From positions 1-36,856 of the IMG/VR virus record IMGVR_UViG_3300047163_000092: a stretch of 36,856 bases of DNA; one strand, given 5' to 3'. This document shows, one piece after another, positions 1 to 35,752 of the stretch; position 1 is the stretch's first letter; each line of letters opens with the position of its first letter. Source of the DNA: a virus. The notes under the pieces are model-generated. The model had not been told where the DNA came from and ran no database searches. It saw nothing but the letters and a program-made list of their open reading frames with translations. The position numbers and the translations under genes are program-made.

Positions 1-11
1 TCGTCAGAGAT

Positions 12-1466
12 ATGCCCGAAGGGTTCGCAGCCTTCTATCGCCCCTTGCACGAGCGCTTCAGCCCGTGGCGCGACGAACTGGACGCCAAACGCAAGGCCGT
101 TCTCGCGCGTTCGCACGAGGGCCGGCTGCCCGGCTACTTGCCGCCGTCGGCCGCGACGACGACCGACTGGCGGATAACGCTTCCGGCCTGGTGCCTCGAT
201 CAGCGCAATCAGATGACGGGTCCGGCCGACGAGGGCGACCTCGTCGTCAAGATGCTCAACTCCGGCGCGCCGGGCGTCATGCTCGACCTCGAAGATTCGA
301 TGGCCAATGCGTGGGAAGCGATGCGCCTGGGCCTCGACAACATCGTCGCGGCACTCTACGGCGAATTGACCTACGAGGATCAGAAACGCGGCAAGACCGT
401 CGGCATCAAAGAATCGTCGACGGTCGTGTGGACGCGCGTCCGCGGCCTGCATCTCCAACAGGCCGGCGTCTATCCCGCCGAGTTGACCTCGGCGTCGCTG
501 TTCGACCTCGCGCAGCTGGTGTACGGCCTCGACCTTTCACGGCTCAAACACCCGCTCGCGATCTACATTCCCAAGTCGGAATCGGCCGAGGAAGCGCTCT
601 GGTGGCGCGACCTGTTTCGCGCGCTTGCGGAGTTCAAAGGGCAGGCGCCCGACTACATCAAGTGCATGGCGCTTTGCGAAGCGCATCCGATGGCGTATCA
701 ACTCGAGGAGTTCGCGTATAATCTCCGCGACCATCTGCTGGGTCTCAATCTCGGCCGCTGGGATTACATGGCGAGTTTAATTCACTTCAACATCAACGAT
801 CCGAACTGGGTCCTGCCCGATCGCAATACGATCCCGCACGACGTGCCGTTCTTCCAGAACCTCCGGCTGCTGATGCCCTCCATCTGTCACAAGCACGGCA
901 TGCTCGCAATCGGCGGCATGACCGCGCTCTTCCCGAGCCGCGACGACGCCGAACTGAACGCGCGCGCGCTCGCGGTCCTCGCGGAGGATAAGAAGAACGA
1001 AGCGACGTGCCTGATGGACGGCGCCTGGACGGGGCACCCCGACCAGAACGACATCGCCGTCGAGCAATTCCCCTTTCCCAATCAGATCGCGTCCTACGAG
1101 CCCGGCTTCGACGCGCAGCCCGATTTGCGCCCGTCCGTCGCGGGCATCGGCGCGCGAACGCTCGACGGAACGCGCGCGGCGGTGCGCACCGTCATCCGCT
1201 ATCGCAACGGCTACATCAACGGCCGCGGCGCGAGCCTGCTCGACGGCTTCATGGAAGATCTGGCGACGGATCGCATCTATCGCTTGATGATCGCGCAGCG
1301 TTTGCAACACGGCGTCGACACGGCCGCCGAGGTCACCGGTCTGTTCGACGAAGAATTGCAGAAGCTGATCGATTCAGGCAAGGAAGCCGGCGACGCGACG
1401 ACGCTGCGGAAAGCGCGCGAGATCGGTGAGGCGATGATCTTGCAAGGGGCGCACGATCCCGTCTAA
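12..1466 (+). CDS. aceB: Malate synthase A, possibly 5'-partial
   Basis: Malate synthase condenses glyoxylate with acetyl-CoA to give malate in the glyoxylate shunt, in the cytoplasm. Family motifs are visible: LDLEDS (residues 91-96), RVRGLH with the active-site Arg (142-147), GLNLGRWDY (244-252), CHKHGMLAIGGM (292-303) and the C-terminal catalytic MED (414-416). At 484 residues it is shorter than the ~530 of typical AceB. The frame stays open to the window edge and the first residues already align inside the usual N-terminal helix, so the true start probably lies upstream and the ATG at 12 may be internal. No isocitrate lyase gene is visible in the window. Confidence 0.93.
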   Translation: MPEGFAAFYRPLHERFSPWRDELDAKRKAVLARSHEGRLPGYLPPSAATTTDWRITLPAWCLDQRNQMTGPADEGDLVVKMLNSGAPGVMLDLEDSMANAWEAMRLGLDNIVAALYGELTYEDQKRGKTVGIKESSTVVWTRVRGLHLQQAGVYPAELTSASLFDLAQLVYGLDLSRLKHPLAIYIPKSESAEEALWWRDLFRALAEFKGQAPDYIKCMALCEAHPMAYQLEEFAYNLRDHLLGLNLGRWDYMASLIHFNINDPNWVLPDRNTIPHDVPFFQNLRLLMPSICHKHGMLAIGGMTALFPSRDDAELNARALAVLAEDKKNEATCLMDGAWTGHPDQNDIAVEQFPFPNQIASYEPGFDAQPDLRPSVAGIGARTLDGTRAAVRTVIRYRNGYINGRGASLLDGFMEDLATDRIYRLMIAQRLQHGVDTAAEVTGLFDEELQKLIDSGKEAGDATTLRKAREIGEAMILQGAHDPV

Positions 1467-1488
1467 CGCGCGGGAGGCCGCGCTCGGC

Positions 1489-1692
1489 GTGGCGGGCGTC
1501 CTCGGGCTCGTGGCGCTCGCGTACGCCGCGAGCGTGCAGCCGGGACGCGTCGACATCGCCGTCGAGCGTCGCGGCGCGGCCATGGCACCCCATCGCGTTC
1601 ACCCCGCCGCGATCCCCTCGGCCGAGGTGATCGTCGGGCATCCGCGCGACGGGATCGTCGAACTGCGTGAACCGCAGAAGGTGCCGCGCTAA
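1489..1692 (+). CDS. Possible small membrane-anchored protein, unrecognised
   Basis: This is a 67-codon frame just after malate synthase, with a GTG start. The N-terminus is a hydrophobic stretch (GVLGLVALAYAASV) that could be a membrane anchor, followed by a polar tail of about 45 residues. No family is recognised and no clear ribosome binding site is seen. The frame is open back to 1438, so a start overlapping aceB is also possible. In DNA this GC-rich a 67-codon frame can occur by chance, so this is a weak call. Confidence 0.3.
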   Translation: MAGVLGLVALAYAASVQPGRVDIAVERRGAAMAPHRVHPAAIPSAEVIVGHPRDGIVELREPQKVPR

Positions 1693-1701
1693 CGCAGACG
1701 A

Positions 1702-1723
1702 CGGCCGCCCCTGGGAGCGGCCG
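1702..1723 (-). terminator. Terminator-like hairpin downstream of tRNA cluster
   Basis: An inverted repeat with 7-bp arms (1702-1708 and 1717-1723) and an 8-nt loop sits between the small plus-strand frame and the 3' end of tRNA-Thr. It could end the minus-strand tRNA transcript, the plus-strand transcript, or both. There is no U-run on either side, so intrinsic termination is uncertain. Confidence 0.3.
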
Positions 1724-1735
1724 CGGATCGAATGC

Positions 1736-1810
<75 letters not shown>

Positions 1811-1817
1811 GACGACC

Positions 1818-1891
1818 TGGAGCGGGCGGCGAGAATCGAACTCGCAACTTCTGCTTGGAAGGCAGAGGCATTACCATTATGCAACGCCCGC
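1818..1891 (-). tRNA. tRNA-Gly (anticodon UCC)
   Basis: This is a 74-nt cloverleaf on the minus strand with a perfect acceptor stem (GCGGGCG/CGCCCGC), anticodon loop CTTCCAA and an encoded CCA. The anticodon UCC reads GGA/GGG codons. It lies 7 nt upstream of tRNA-Thr and is probably processed from the same precursor. Confidence 0.96.
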
Positions 1892-1895
1892 GGAC

Positions 1896-1983
1896 TGGTG
1901 GGCAGGGCAGGATTCGAACCTGCGTAGCGCTTTCGCGCGCCGAATTTACAGTCCGGTGCCTTTAACCACTCGACCACCTACCC
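1896..1983 (-). tRNA. tRNA-Tyr (anticodon GUA)
   Basis: This is an 88-nt class II tRNA on the minus strand. The acceptor stem is GGGTAGG/CCTGCCC, the anticodon loop CTGTAAA gives GTA, the variable arm is long and the CCA is encoded. It is the first gene of the Tyr-Gly-Thr cluster, and only 4 nt separate it from tRNA-Gly. In E. coli the same three tRNAs, preceded by tRNA-Thr(UGU), lead into tufB. No tuf gene follows here. Confidence 0.96.
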
Positions 1984-2116
1984 ATACCGGTCCGGACCAG
2001 CGTCCGTTGGTTACGGGGCCGCCGTTCCGGGTCCTTGTCCCGGTTCGTTCCCGCCCGCGCCGCTCGCCTTTCGGGCCGCGGCACGCTGCGGAAGCGCCGG
2101 ATAAACCGCGGCCGGT

Positions 2117-4070: not shown

Positions 4071-5144
4071 CTACGGGCGCGGCGGGGCCGGGGGCGACGG
4101 CGACGGTTGCGGGGTCGTGATGTAGACATACGCCGGGTACTCGAGTTGCGTCGCGTTCCCCGCGATCTCGCTCTTGGGGGCGACGTTGCCGTTGGCATGC
4201 GGGGCGAAACGCGCGATGGAATTGGAATACCGGTTGGTGACGAGGATCTCGCCGCTCGCGTCCACGATCGGGTCGTCCGGGTTGCTCAATTGCGTCTCGC
4301 TGCCGGTGATGAGACGATCCGGCGGCACGTTGCTCATCGGATACGGAAGCGGATGATACGCGGCGACGGCTTGCGAGTTGAGCGCGGTGTAAATCTCCCC
4401 GTCGGGCCCGACCGATACGCCGTTGGGCTGATAGAGGTCGGTCAAGGACCCCGCGATCACGTCGATCGGCGCGACGTTCCCGTTCGAACCGGGGGGAAAG
4501 ACGACGATCGAATTGCCGAAGAGATTCGAGACGTAAATATTGCCCGCCGCATCCACCGCAACGCTGCTCACGCGATCGAATTGCGTGTTGGAACCGCTGA
4601 TGACGGCAGCCGGCGCGGCATTGCCGTTGCTTCCCGGCGGATAGACGGTCACGTTATCGGGGCCGCTCGCGCCGCAATCCGATCCGCAGCTCACCGTGTA
4701 GAGATTGCCGGCAGCGTCGATTGCGAGGCCGCCGGGCTGCTGCAGGGTGGAGCCGGTGATCACGACATTGGGTGCGGCATCGCCGGTCGATCCCGGTGCG
4801 AAGCCCAAAATCTCGTTCTTCGACGAGTCCGCAACGTAGATCTCGCCCCGTGCGTCGACGACGACCCCGTTGGGGCCCTGCAATTGCGTGTCGTATCCCT
4901 TGATGACGCCGACCGGCTTCGCATTGCCTTTCGCGTCCACGCGATACGTCGTGATGAAGCTTCCGCTGCTAAACGTGTTGTCGGTGACGTAGGGTAATTT
5001 TTGCACCTCGTGCTTCGCGGGCACGCGGGCGATGAAGGCCGCAGCGGCGCCCGTCTGCGGCATGGGCGGCGACGCCGTGTGCGACGAGCACGCTGCGACG
5101 GCGAACGCGAGACCCAGTGCGGGCAGGCCGATCGGAGAACGCAT
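4071..5144 (-). CDS. NHL-repeat beta-propeller lipoprotein
   Basis: This is a 357-residue predicted lipoprotein. A signal peptide ends in a lipobox with the lipidated Cys at residue 19 (AFAVAAC), followed by a Ser/Pro-rich linker. Seven or so repeats follow, built around GNIYV/GEIYVA-type strands, PxGVAVD turns and PPGSNGN-type loops, typical of NHL/SMP-30-like propellers. It should sit on the outer face of a membrane. Ligand and role are unknown. The ATG at 5144 is chosen over the longer frame because the upstream part would run through the tRNA half at 5169-5210, and because GAGG lies 9 nt before it. It ends in a Pro-rich tail. Confidence 0.85.
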   Translation of the reverse strand: MRSPIGLPALGLAFAVAACSSHTASPPMPQTGAAAAFIARVPAKHEVQKLPYVTDNTFSSGSFITTYRVDAKGNAKPVGVIKGYDTQLQGPNGVVVDARGEIYVADSSKNEILGFAPGSTGDAAPNVVITGSTLQQPGGLAIDAAGNLYTVSCGSDCGASGPDNVTVYPPGSNGNAAPAAVISGSNTQFDRVSSVAVDAAGNIYVSNLFGNSIVVFPPGSNGNVAPIDVIAGSLTDLYQPNGVSVGPDGEIYTALNSQAVAAYHPLPYPMSNVPPDRLITGSETQLSNPDDPIVDASGEILVTNRYSNSIARFAPHANGNVAPKSEIAGNATQLEYPAYVYITTPQPSPSPPAPPRP

Positions 5145-5168
5145 CCCGGAGAACCTCACGGACCGATG

Positions 5169-5210
5169 AGCCGACGGCCGGACTCGAACCGGCGACCCTC
5201 TGCTTACAAG
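5169..5210 (-). other. Prophage attachment site: 3' half of tRNA-Thr (UGU)
   Basis: On the minus strand this reads as the 3' part of a tRNA. It holds the anticodon loop CTTGTAA (anticodon TGT), the 3' anticodon strand GCAGA, a perfect T-arm (GCCGG/CCGGC around TTCGAGT), the 3' acceptor strand CGTCGGC and discriminator T. The bases 5' of the loop (GACGA) cannot pair with GCAGA, and no 5' acceptor strand (GCCGACG) lies to the right. This is the usual junction left when an element integrates in a tRNA gene: the half stays here and the full tRNA is rebuilt at the other end. CAT replaces an encoded CCA. Phage genes begin just to the right, beyond a short region (5211-5333) with no feature. Confidence 0.75.
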
Positions 5211-5333
5211 TCGTCTTTCGAGTGCATCGGGTCGGGCCTTTTGACGCTTGTTCCTCGTGGAACACGTCCATACGTTCCACCGCCCGAGGAGCTTTCCCAC
5301 CGCTGTGGCTGTCTCTATTGGCTGTCAAACGCG

Positions 5334-6625: not shown

Positions 6626-7186
6626 TCAATCGGGAAGCGGGAGCGGTTCGCCGATCACCGAGTACACGGCGACGTTGTCGGCAAGCAACGGCGCGAGCCA
6701 CGACGCGAACGCGTCGAAGTCCTCATTGTGCAGACGCGTGCAGCCCTCGGTCCTCAGCAGCGGCTGCTGCGGCGCCAGCGGATCGGGAGCGTTCGATCCG
6801 CCTCCGTGAATCATGATCGCCGAGCGATCGTATTTCGCGAGCTGGCCGATCGGCAGCGTGATCCCACCGATCTCCACCTGCGTGTCGACCGCGCCGGGCT
6901 CGTAGCTGAAAACGGCGATGCGGGCCTTGCCGGCGTTTTCGAGCGTGCGGACCGTTGCGAAGTCGAGATCCGCGACGTAGACCTGTCCGTCGCCCTCCGA
7001 CGCGATCGGTGCGTCAAATTTCTCGACGTGCGTGAGCAGATAATGCCCGACCGGAGTCGGGCCGTCGTGCCCATATCCGGGACCGCCCCACGCATCGCCG
7101 CCGGCGACGAACTGCGCTTCGATCGCACCGTTGAGGCCGAACACTTTGAACGATGCGCTGGGTCGATTGAAAACGACGTGGATCAC
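6626..7186 (-). CDS. L,D-transpeptidase-like (YkuD) murein enzyme
   Basis: YkuD enzymes act on peptidoglycan stem peptides through a Cys thiolate, either cross-linking or cleaving. This 186-residue protein has the family signature: TPVGHYLL (44-51), then MIHGGG with His127-Gly128, then TEGCTRL with Cys149 and Arg151. There is no signal peptide, so it would need the holin or the spanin complex to reach its substrate. Its location between a coiled-coil membrane protein and holin-like genes suggests it serves as or with the endolysin. The GTG start overlaps the upstream stop as GTGA. No lysozyme, amidase or other endolysin domain is recognised in the cassette. Confidence 0.75.
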   Translation of the reverse strand: MIHVVFNRPSASFKVFGLNGAIEAQFVAGGDAWGGPGYGHDGPTPVGHYLLTHVEKFDAPIASEGDGQVYVADLDFATVRTLENAGKARIAVFSYEPGAVDTQVEIGGITLPIGQLAKYDRSAIMIHGGGSNAPDPLAPQQPLLRTEGCTRLHNEDFDAFASWLAPLLADNVAVYSVIGEPLPLPD

Positions 7187-33224: not shown

Positions 33225-33519
33225 GCGGCGATCTCGTCGACGATCTTCGCCCGCACGTGATCTAACACGCGCAGCTTCTCTTGCAGCGTCGTAATCGACC
33301 CCGACTCGCTGCTCTGCTCGAATAGGGCCAGAGCCGCGTCCAGAAGATCGCACTCTGCGAGGCGTTCGAGCTCGTCGGCACTTCCGGCTCGGGCGGCTGC
33401 CGGCGCTTTTTGCGCGCAGCCTGCTTCTTCTTCCACTCCTTCGGGTGGTCGGCTTTTTGGTGCGCCGCGATCGCCTGCATTTGCGTGAAATCGTCGCGCT
33501 GACATATCGTGCATTTCAT
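33221..33519 (-). CDS. C2H2-like zinc-finger protein requiring a -1 frameshift
   Basis: The start at 33519 overlaps the upstream stop (ATGA). It encodes a C2H2-type finger (CTICQRDDF...HQKADH, residues 3-25) and a Lys-rich helix. This frame then loses coding character and would end at 33262. The -1 frame then encodes ADELERLAECDLLDAALALF and a helix to 33221. The heptamer CAAAAAG (33,406-33,412) is where the frames can join, giving 99 residues. Programmed frameshifting, an indel, or two overlapping genes are all possible. Confidence 0.55.
33406..33412 (-). promoter_or_regulatory. Possible -1 frameshift heptamer C-AAA-AAG
   Basis: Reading frame 0 is CGC AAA AAG, and a -1 shift gives GCG next. 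It resembles the dnaX-type A-AAA-AAG site, but the first base is C, so P-site re-pairing is imperfect. No stimulator has been analysed. An indel in the poly-A run is an equal explanation. Confidence 0.35.
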
Positions 33520-33819
33520 GATTCGAGCCTTTCGATCAGGATGGTCGCGCCCGTCGGTTCCTCGACCGCGAAGCGCTTCCGGAGTGTGAGATCGCAGATC
33601 CGCGCATCGTCCGCGTAGATCAAGCCGGTCATCGAGTCGAGCACGGCGCGCGCGCACTTGTCGAGATCGAGCCCGGTGTGTGGCAGCGTCACGCGCTTGG
33701 GCGCGGTCTTGGGACGCTGCAAACGAAACTCGACGGTGACGGCGATCGGGCCGTCGAGCGGCGCCGGCGATCGTGACGGCCCAGACGATTGGGGCGCCGC
33801 AGCTTCTGCACGCGCTCAT
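33516..33819 (-). pseudogene. RusA-like resolvase remnant joined to a zinc-ribbon start
   Basis: Two recognisable pieces lie in different frames. At 33819 an ATG overlapping the upstream stop (ATGA) opens MSACRSCGAPIVWAVT, like small phage zinc-ribbon proteins. About 50 nt later the +1 frame reads PLDGPIAVTVEFRL, then DLDKCARAVLDSMTG and YADD. Those are the D-x-D and second Asp of RusA Holliday-junction resolvases, with Arg in place of the usual Lys. RusA's N-terminal ~40 residues are missing. An internal deletion or frameshift probably fused two genes. A TTG at 33722 could start the RusA part alone. Confidence 0.5.
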
Positions 33820-34346
33820 ATCTCGACGCTCGCGGTCTTCTCGCGCAGCGACGTGTTGCCGCGCGCGACTTTCCCGCCGCGGCCCTTATCACGCGCGATC
33901 TCGTCTTCGCGCAACAGCCGCATCTGCTGCTCGCGCTCGGCCTCGTCCTCACGAGCTCGGCGCTCGCGCTCCAGCGACTCGTTCCACGCTTCGGACTCGA
34001 CGTGCGCGGGGATCGCGGCGCGCTTCGCCCGGACCTTGCGCGCCAGCGCGATCAGCACGCAACGGCGCAGCTGCGCGCCGACGGCGCTCGGGGCGCGCGG
34101 GTGATCGTGCTTCGCGATCACGGCGTCGGGATCGGCGGCGATCGCGGCGAGCTCCTCGAGCGTGACGAGCCCCGCATCGAGTGCCGCGCGCGCGTAGGAT
34201 CCACGCTTCCCGAGCCACTCGTCGTAGGTCAAATGCTGGCGGCCTTCCGCGCGCATCTTGCCGTAGATCGCGGCGAGCGCGTTTGCCCACACGAGCGCAT
34301 CGAAGCCGGGTTTCACTGCGCGCTCGGGACGCTGCGTCGTCGTCAT
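33816..34346 (-). CDS. Phage protein of the replication region, unknown
   Basis: This 176-residue protein starts at an ATG overlapping the initiator-like gene's stop (ATGA). After MTTTQRPERAVKPGFDALVWANALAAIYG come LTYDEWLGKRGSYARAALDAG and a long charged helix (ESLERERRAREDEAEREQQMR). A replication or recombination accessory role is possible. No family is recognised. Confidence 0.65.
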   Translation of the reverse strand: MTTTQRPERAVKPGFDALVWANALAAIYGKMRAEGRQHLTYDEWLGKRGSYARAALDAGLVTLEELAAIAADPDAVIAKHDHPRAPSAVGAQLRRCVLIALARKVRAKRAAIPAHVESEAWNESLERERRAREDEAEREQQMRLLREDEIARDKGRGGKVARGNTSLREKTASVEI

Positions 34347-35299
34347 CGCGCGGCTCTCCGCGGTTCGAGGCCCTCTTCGAGCGCCCGAATCATGAACGGG
34401 TTCCGCCACGGCGCGCCGTCGGCGATCTCGGTATGATAGCGCAGAGCGGCGGCCACGTACTGGGACACGGTCAGGTCCGCGTAGAGCTCCGAACTCGCGA
34501 GCTTGGCAATGCCGACGACGATGTCGGCGCCGGCCTTGCGGTTGCGGCTCAGCGACTTCGTGCAGTTGGCAAACCTGTACGCGTGATAGCGAGCGACGAG
34601 CAGGCGCTCTTGCACCGAGAGCTCGCGGATGCGCTTGTCGCGGATCGCGTTGACGTCCTCGCGCAGCTTCGGCACCCAGACGGCGGGATCGCGCTCGTCG
34701 GCCGTTTCGGCCTCGTGCGCGCCCGGGTGTAAGTCAGACTCGGATACGGAGCGTAGCGGAGTATCCGAGGCAACTCTAACTAGATCCTTAGCCGTGCGCG
34801 CCCGCGAGATACGGTCCGGAGCGGAATCTCCGTTTCGGTCCGAATCGTGCTCATTTTTCGGTCCGCGGGTGTCAGCGCGTTTCGGTCCGTCCGCGACTGC
34901 ACGCGACGCGCCGTCGCTTCGGTCCGGATCGTGCTCATTTTTCGGTCCGAAGCCGCGCTGCACGCGACCGTCCGCCAGTAGCTGATCGAGCAGGTCGGCG
35001 CCGTCGTTCTGCTGCCCGTTACGGTCCGCGGCGTGTTCTGCATTACGGTCCGGAACGTGCTCAATTTTCGGTCCGCGCTCGGCGTCGCGTTTCGGTCCGC
35101 GCTTCAACGATGCCGATCGTCCGACGACGCCTGGTTTACGGTCCGCGGCCGCAACGAGCGGCGCGAGCCAGCGCGATGCGTCGTCGTTGGAGAACTTCGC
35201 GCCGGCAGCGCGCGCGACGATCCGCGTGCGACCGATACTGACGACACCCTGAGACTCGAGCAGACGAAAAATGCCGATCACGACTGTCCGAGCCTCCAC
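34343..35299 (-). CDS. Putative phage replication initiator with internal iterons
   Basis: This 318-residue protein has an N-terminal ~60-residue domain that could be a winged helix (FRLLESQGVVSIGRTRIVARAAG). Its middle is low complexity and Asp/Arg/Lys-rich, with short repeats such as GPKNEHDPDRS. A helical C-terminal domain follows (LREDVNAIRDKRIRELSVQERLLVARYH). The middle coincides with an array of 11 CGGTCCG iteron-like sites. In lambda, the origin iterons also lie inside initiator gene O, so an initiator role is inferred by analogy and position. The GTG start has GGGGGG about 6 nt upstream. Confidence 0.5.
   Translation of the reverse strand: MEARTVVIGIFRLLESQGVVSIGRTRIVARAAGAKFSNDDASRWLAPLVAAADRKPGVVGRSASLKRGPKRDAERGPKIEHVPDRNAEHAADRNGQQNDGADLLDQLLADGRVQRGFGPKNEHDPDRSDGASRAVADGPKRADTRGPKNEHDSDRNGDSAPDRISRARTAKDLVRVASDTPLRSVSESDLHPGAHEAETADERDPAVWVPKLREDVNAIRDKRIRELSVQERLLVARYHAYRFANCTKSLSRNRKAGADIVVGIAKLASSELYADLTVSQYVAAALRYHTEIADGAPWRNPFMIRALEEGLEPRRAAR
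34739..34769. repeat. Inverted repeat beside the iterons
   Basis: CTCGGATAC (34,739-34,747) and GTATCCGAG (34,761-34,769) form a 9-bp palindrome with a 13-nt centre. It is in coding sequence, next to the AT-rich stretch (34,770-34,792) and the first iteron. A protein-binding site at a replication origin is possible. Confidence 0.5.
34812..35145. repeat. Iteron-like array: 11 copies of CGGTCCG
   Basis: Copies start at 34812, 34836, 34859, 34883, 34920, 34943, 35022, 35046, 35069, 35093 and 35139. Most are preceded by TTT or TTA. Many neighbours are 23 or 24 bp apart (24, 23, 24, 37, 23, 79, 24, 23, 24, 46). Three near-identical 30-bp pairs occur (34836-34865, 34920-34949, 35046-35075). Because 23 is not a multiple of three, the heptamer is read as Gly-Pro in some copies and Asp-Arg in others. 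This argues for DNA-level constraint. A phage replication origin is the best reading. Confidence 0.7.
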
Positions 35300-35487
35300 C
35301 AGCTACCCCCCGAGATACACGGACGAACCGCCCGCTTGCATGCCCAAAAAAGGGCGGACCCCGCGCTTCCGTCTGCGTTGAGATGCAGCACCCCGTGCGC
35401 AATGAGCGACACGATCAGCGCGGCGAGCGCGACGAGCAACGAGACCCGCATGACGCGATCGAGGATCTTCACGGGATCACGCGGCAT
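35278..35487 (-). CDS. Small membrane protein
   Basis: This 69-residue protein has one transmembrane segment (VSLLVALAALIVSLIAHGVL) after a short basic start. Overlaps neighbours at both ends (22 bp with the initiator-like gene). Possibly a phage-encoded exclusion or membrane-associated protein; no family is recognised. Confidence 0.6.
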   Translation of the reverse strand: MPRDPVKILDRVMRVSLLVALAALIVSLIAHGVLHLNADGSAGSALFWACKRAVRPCISGGSWWRLGQS

Positions 35488-35752
35488 CGGCCACCACCCG
35501 ATCGCGACGCACGATGCCGAGCGCGGACCAACGCTGGATCGCGACGCGCGGGATCATCCGCGCGGCACCCAGACGTCGGTACGGCAGCGGGCCCTGATTC
35601 ATGAGCTCGTAGATCTGCGAGCGCGAGAGGCCGAGGAACTCGGCGGCCTCCCGCGCTCGCATGAATCCGTCGGCCGCGAGCTCCTCGTTCGTCAGCCCTG
35701 CCAACTCACGCGCGAGCCGCGCCTCGTCCGGAGTGACCGGGCGCCGCTTCAC
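35477..35752 (-). CDS. HTH DNA-binding protein, excisionase-like
   Basis: This 91-residue protein has a MerR/excisionase-type helix-turn-helix: MRAREAAEFLGLSRSQIYEL, followed by GPLPYRRLGAARMIPR. This motif is common in phage excisionases and Xis-like regulators. The GTG start overlaps the upstream stop as GTGA. It may direct recombination or control early transcription. The integrase expected as its partner was not seen in this window. Confidence 0.65.
   Translation of the reverse strand: MKRRPVTPDEARLARELAGLTNEELAADGFMRAREAAEFLGLSRSQIYELMNQGPLPYRRLGAARMIPRVAIQRWSALGIVRRDRVVADAA

Follow-up and report, generated by a model that had tools for sequence, protein, structure and literature searches.

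In phage lambda, gene O contains four iterons and, next to them, an AT-rich region of 39-40 bp; the iterons are bound by dimers of the initiator O, whose C terminus is regarded as its P-binding part (PMC6022878, PMC5043065). Some lambdoid relatives have six sites where lambda has four (PMC7466680). In phage SPP1, gp38 binds the oriL repeats inside gene 38, which also contains an AT-rich unwinding region (PMC6316719). Iteron plasmid origins carry direct iterons roughly two helical turns apart beside AT-rich DNA (PMC5043065).

Here, we describe an array of eleven short direct repeats within the gene for a 318-aa protein, found in a 36,856-nucleotide stretch of viral DNA (IMG/VR record IMGVR_UViG_3300047163_000092, positions 1 to 36,856; hereafter, the window). 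The best reading of the locus is that a lambda-O-like initiator gene, from a putative new initiator family, contains a candidate iteron origin. As in lambda, repeated putative initiator sites lie mid-gene with an AT-rich tract on one side, the gene follows a cro-like gene in an early operon, and the protein has a proposed layout of an N-terminal DNA-binding domain and a C-terminal partner-recruiting domain. The initial annotation had equated the arrangement with that of the lambda O gene; this holds for the architecture, but family searches do not place the protein among the lambda O members. Unlike lambda, the locus has 11 sites rather than 4, these are 7 to 9 bp rather than inverted repeats of 18 to 19 bp, the protein has no sequence match to O, and no P gene is recognizable beside it. 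The locus likewise resembles SPP1 oriL and gene 38 in having direct repeats and an AT-rich region inside the gene of an origin-binding protein (here a putative one); it differs in that the SPP1 helicase loader gp39 and helicase gp40 have no recognized counterpart and in showing no sequence match. With iteron plasmid origins, the locus shares the spacing of its direct iterons, close to two helical turns, and their position beside AT-rich DNA, whereas a RepA-type protein match is absent here. In plasmids, the iterons are usually located outside the rep gene. The features of the locus are as follows.

34343-35299, minus strand: putative replication initiator, 318 aa, GTG start; an open frame with C-domain homology to proteins that have replication-initiation N termini.
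35135-35299, minus strand: N-terminal three-helix segment, helix-turn-helix-like in an AF2 single-sequence model; presumed iteron-binding domain.
34810-35145, minus strand: array of 11 direct iterons (CGGACCGWA on the coding strand) within the part of the gene that encodes the linker.
35139-35145, minus strand: lone outlying iteron, an exact match.
35022-35099, minus strand: four-iteron block, copy A of a duplicated block (starts 35022, 35046, 35069, and 35093).
34920-34949, minus strand: two-iteron pair (starts 34920 and 34943).
34812-34889, minus strand: four-iteron block, copy B of the duplicated block (starts 34812, 34836, 34859, and 34883; spacing 24, 23, 24).
34771-34790, unstranded: AT-rich tract, presumed unwinding element, adjoining the array on the C-domain side; 65% AT in a 66% GC window.
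34739-34769, unstranded: 9-bp inverted repeat CTCGGATAC-N13-GTATCCGAG with loop TCCGCTACGCTCC; DNA fold z = -3.2.
34370-34699, minus strand: conserved C-terminal domain with a YHxxxFxNCTKS motif, 30 to 37% identical to three relatives; presumed to recruit a helicase or loader.

On the coding strand, the order is therefore the three-helix segment, the iterons, the AT-rich tract, the inverted repeat, and the C-terminal domain. In agreement with the initial annotation, an exact search of the window found eleven copies of CGGTCCG within about 335 bp (34812 to 35145), all on the plus strand in a single orientation. The bare heptamer is not rare in GC-rich DNA (23 observed in the window versus about 20 expected), and the signal is its clustering, not its frequency: across 40 simulated windows, the maximum for any 7-mer was 6 copies per 334 bp. 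All eleven array copies extend to TWCGGTCCG, and the exact matches to this 9-mer in the whole window are the same eleven, all inside the array. In the coding sense, CGGACCG is followed by A or T and then by A, with a further A in 9 of the 11; the flanking TTW noted earlier is thus found in 9 copies and its TW portion in all 11. The spacings between iterons are, in order, 46, 24, 23, 24, 79, 23, 37, 24, 23, and 24 bp. Seven of these ten are 23 or 24 bp, as had been remarked, but at 10.5 bp per turn this is about 2.2 to 2.3 helical turns and not exactly two. The AT-rich stretch and the 9-bp inverted repeat reported near the array (34,770 to 34,792 and 34739 to 34769) were likewise recovered. The AT content of the tract is equaled at 0.4% of window positions, although the tract is short and windows of 30 to 40 bp are less extreme. 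GC skew shows no turn at the array and was uninformative. When viral and genome contigs were searched with paired-iteron DNA patterns, the denser matches included unrelated in-frame tandem repeats such as L051 and L029.

The initial annotation described the initiator as unlike any recognized one; the 318-aa protein matched no family in Pfam or PHROGs, including the N-terminal models for lambda O and Phage_rep_O. It had no relative among 50,697 phage records, and its sole match among viral contigs was a near-identical sister contig. The AF2 model of the whole protein is poor (pLDDT 49). The N-terminal helices are modeled at residues 3 to 16, 22 to 31, and 38 to 54 with low confidence (pLDDT 66), and this segment has no fold match in the PDB. 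The C-terminal domain matched nothing in PHROGs or the PDB, and a protein search of genome contigs with the C-terminal part was also negative. A C-domain profile found no match in 247 Acidobacteriota and 398 Pseudomonadota genomes, an empty answer that is uninformative by itself; searches outside Eremiobacterota were small in scale.

The C-terminal domain nevertheless has three relatives: L183 (401 aa) and L184 (a broken frame), both in one Eremiobacterota genome, and L193 (272 aa) in a viral contig. The window protein and these relatives share 30 to 37% identity around a core of the YHxxxFxNCTKS type, and the C-terminal domain is the only part common to them. The N terminus of L183 matches the PHROGs "replication initiation O-like" model (E = 2e-9) and Pfam HTH_36, and L193 matches PHROGs "replication initiation protein" models (E = 3e-5). 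Because of these matches, the family most likely consists of replication initiators, and the window protein would be a member through its C domain. A transposase-like gene, named from its sequence, adjoins the broken relative (L184, 190 to 1386), which fits a decaying prophage.

Each relative, like the window gene, has short linker repeats and AT-rich DNA, while N termini and repeat sequences differ. In linkers picked by eye, the repeats are GTACCA/GGTACC in L184, CGTTAC/GTAACG in L193, and ACCTAGGT-like in L183, and low-GC 40-bp windows fall at the linker in all three. GTACCA in L184 and CGTTAC in L193 (five copies each) rank first or joint first among the 6-mer clusters in their respective 12-kb loci. 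When each gene was scanned along its length without guidance, clear signals came from the window (z = 6) and L184 (z = 7.7), but those of L183 (P = 0.045, its top-scoring window lying elsewhere) and L193 (P = 0.02) did not exceed the signals of control genes. The repeat signal in the relatives is thus strong in one and moderate in two. The pattern that the initial annotation held to speak against an origin, a Gly-Pro/Asp-Arg peptide kept while the heptamer spacing is lost, was not seen: peptide and heptamer are both absent from the relatives, which have repeats of their own. This comparison, which covers three relatives, one of them broken, suggests that the N terminus and the iterons may change together while the C domain stays. 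A hairpin loop motif, TC(C)RCTNCGYTC, occurs just past the AT-rich tract in three of the four family members (window, 34739 to 34769; L193, 5943 to 5973; L184, about 1740 to 1775). It is in the same frame (Leu-Arg-Ser) in all three, and protein conservation may account for it.

The window is a prophage of Ca. Eremiobacterota, an assignment based on a malate synthase gene in the host flank and on portal homologues in the phylum. Host chromosomal DNA makes up the left end of the window (1 to 2000), with malate synthase at 12 to 1466 and tRNA-Thr/Gly/Tyr at 1736 to 1983. This malate synthase is 86% identical to that of one Ca. Eremiobacterota genome and 62 to 79% identical to those of dozens more of the phylum, versus at most 38% identity among 119 Actinomycetota genomes; portal homologues (44 to 49%) were found in 3 of 149 Ca. 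Eremiobacterota genomes. The sister contig (L002/L042), which is at least 99.8% identical to the window and reaches further upstream, has a tyrosine-type integrase (named by sequence, not by family search) beside tRNA-Thr. The prophage also encodes an NHL-repeat protein and an L,D-transpeptidase-like (YkuD) protein (window, 4071 to 5300 and 6626 to 7186).

Upstream, the sister contig has a CI-like gene and a divergent Cro-like gene, followed by a same-strand run that ends in a gene for a small DNA-binding protein and the array gene. Downstream of the array gene come a 176-aa protein, part of a RusA-like resolvase, the terminase subunits, and the portal. The immediate neighbors are as follows.

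35477-35752, minus strand: HTH_17/AlpA-like small DNA-binding protein, upstream of the initiator (PF12728, E = 1.8e-11).
33816-34346, minus strand: next gene, 176 aa, with no assigned function and no family or phage match; position of a loader gene.
33516-33722, minus strand: RusA-like Holliday junction resolvase, C-terminal part (phrog_140, E = 1.4e-12; PF05866, E = 6.6e-6).

By this gene order, the array gene belongs to an early operon downstream of a cro-like gene, which is the position of O in lambda. No helicase or loader was recognized among the early genes scanned. The RusA-like domain was seen as a 68-aa C-terminal ORF within 33262 to 33819, possibly a shortened or frameshifted RusA gene. 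A portal-related phage (L172; 60%) has no homologue of the array gene. At the equivalent place (L172, 1 to 3100), it has a different replication module, consisting of RecT-like, 275-aa unknown, and DnaB-like helicase genes, so the replication module is exchanged between related phages. Its early region also includes a gene for a pentapeptide-repeat-like protein with 15-bp repeats (L172, 4245 to 4685).

This neighborhood bears on two other explanations for the array. Rather than an origin, it could be a group of operators bound by a transcriptional regulator, whether the 318-aa protein itself or the CI-like, Cro-like, or AlpA-like protein, since genes for HTH proteins are close by and the core, CGG-A-CCG, is quasi-palindromic, like many operators. 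We consider this unlikely, as the eleven sites are direct, in the same orientation, and within one gene; as a promoter scan around the array, which is a weak test, found no promoter-like site; and as relatives with replication-initiation N termini have other repeats at the equivalent place. Repeat arrays also occur at packaging and partition sites, and the small terminase gene is located about 2.6 kb downstream of the array. A packaging (pac/cos) or partition site inside an early gene is still less probable than operators, given that the family of the carrier gene is most likely replication related and that no ParA/ParB-like gene was present among the genes scanned.

The coding sequence itself addresses whether tandem duplication could have spread a repeated peptide, GPKNEHDPDRN, with the heptamer as its by-product. 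The linker is indeed partly built by duplication (the D1/D2 families and the four-iteron block, which is present twice). However, the initial annotation was correct that the iterons are read in two frames, as Gly-Pro in 5 copies and Asp-Arg in 6, and the Gly codon of the Gly-Pro copies is always GGA, which makes up 8% of Gly codons in the phage. When the same protein was recoded in 20,000 trials, using the codon usage of the phage structural genes, CGGACCGWA occurred on average 0.67 times and at most 5 times, versus the actual 11. Copies A and B of the duplicated block differ at 21 of 86 nucleotides and at none of the 28 core nucleotides, indicating drift in the spacers and the encoded peptide but not in the heptamers. 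The probability of zero core changes under random placement is 6e-5, a value that comes from blocks aligned on their heptamers once the duplication had been noticed and not from a blind test. The differences are spread over codon positions without bias (6/9/6). The recoding result, the rarity of GGA, and the invariant cores together bear out the earlier claim that protein-level selection alone is insufficient, and the heptamer is evidently held at the DNA level rather than as a by-product of the protein, leaving the protein-repeat explanation with very little credibility. An RNA-level element of the early transcript, such as an antitermination signal or mRNA structure, would fit the single orientation of every copy relative to transcription, but it is equally implausible, as predicted RNA folding is average for the composition (z = -0.03) and Rfam gave no match.

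Collectively, these data make it highly probable that the array is the replication origin of the phage and that this origin lies within the gene for its initiator. The reading proposed in the initial annotation is thus strengthened by the DNA-level constraint on clustered sites, by the early-operon position, and by relatives with O-like or replication-initiation N termini and linker repeats of their own. In the mechanism that we envisage, the N-terminal segment would bind CGGACCGWA, and the DNA would be wrapped by many bound copies of the protein, opening the AT-rich tract. The C domain would recruit host DnaB helicase, either directly or via the 176-aa product of the next gene; a host helicase is proposed since the early genes scanned showed no helicase of the phage's own. 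A more ambitious proposal, which we hold tentatively and consider somewhat doubtful, is that these proteins form a new family of Ca. Eremiobacterota phage initiators in which an undescribed C domain brings in the host helicase with no need for a separate loader, and in which the N-terminal part and the linker array are exchanged or co-evolve as a cassette.

An origin coded within its own initiator is the lambda arrangement, known from a few model phages. The same layout now appears in a phage whose host belongs to an uncultured phylum; its putative initiator is unrecognized by the family libraries searched, and its sites are almost three times as numerous as those of lambda. Phages of this group have hardly been described, and the locus provides a candidate minimal origin for them. 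The C domain offers a handle for finding further initiators of this kind. The apparent paired change of N terminus and iterons around a kept C domain would make the co-evolution of origin and initiator testable by swaps.
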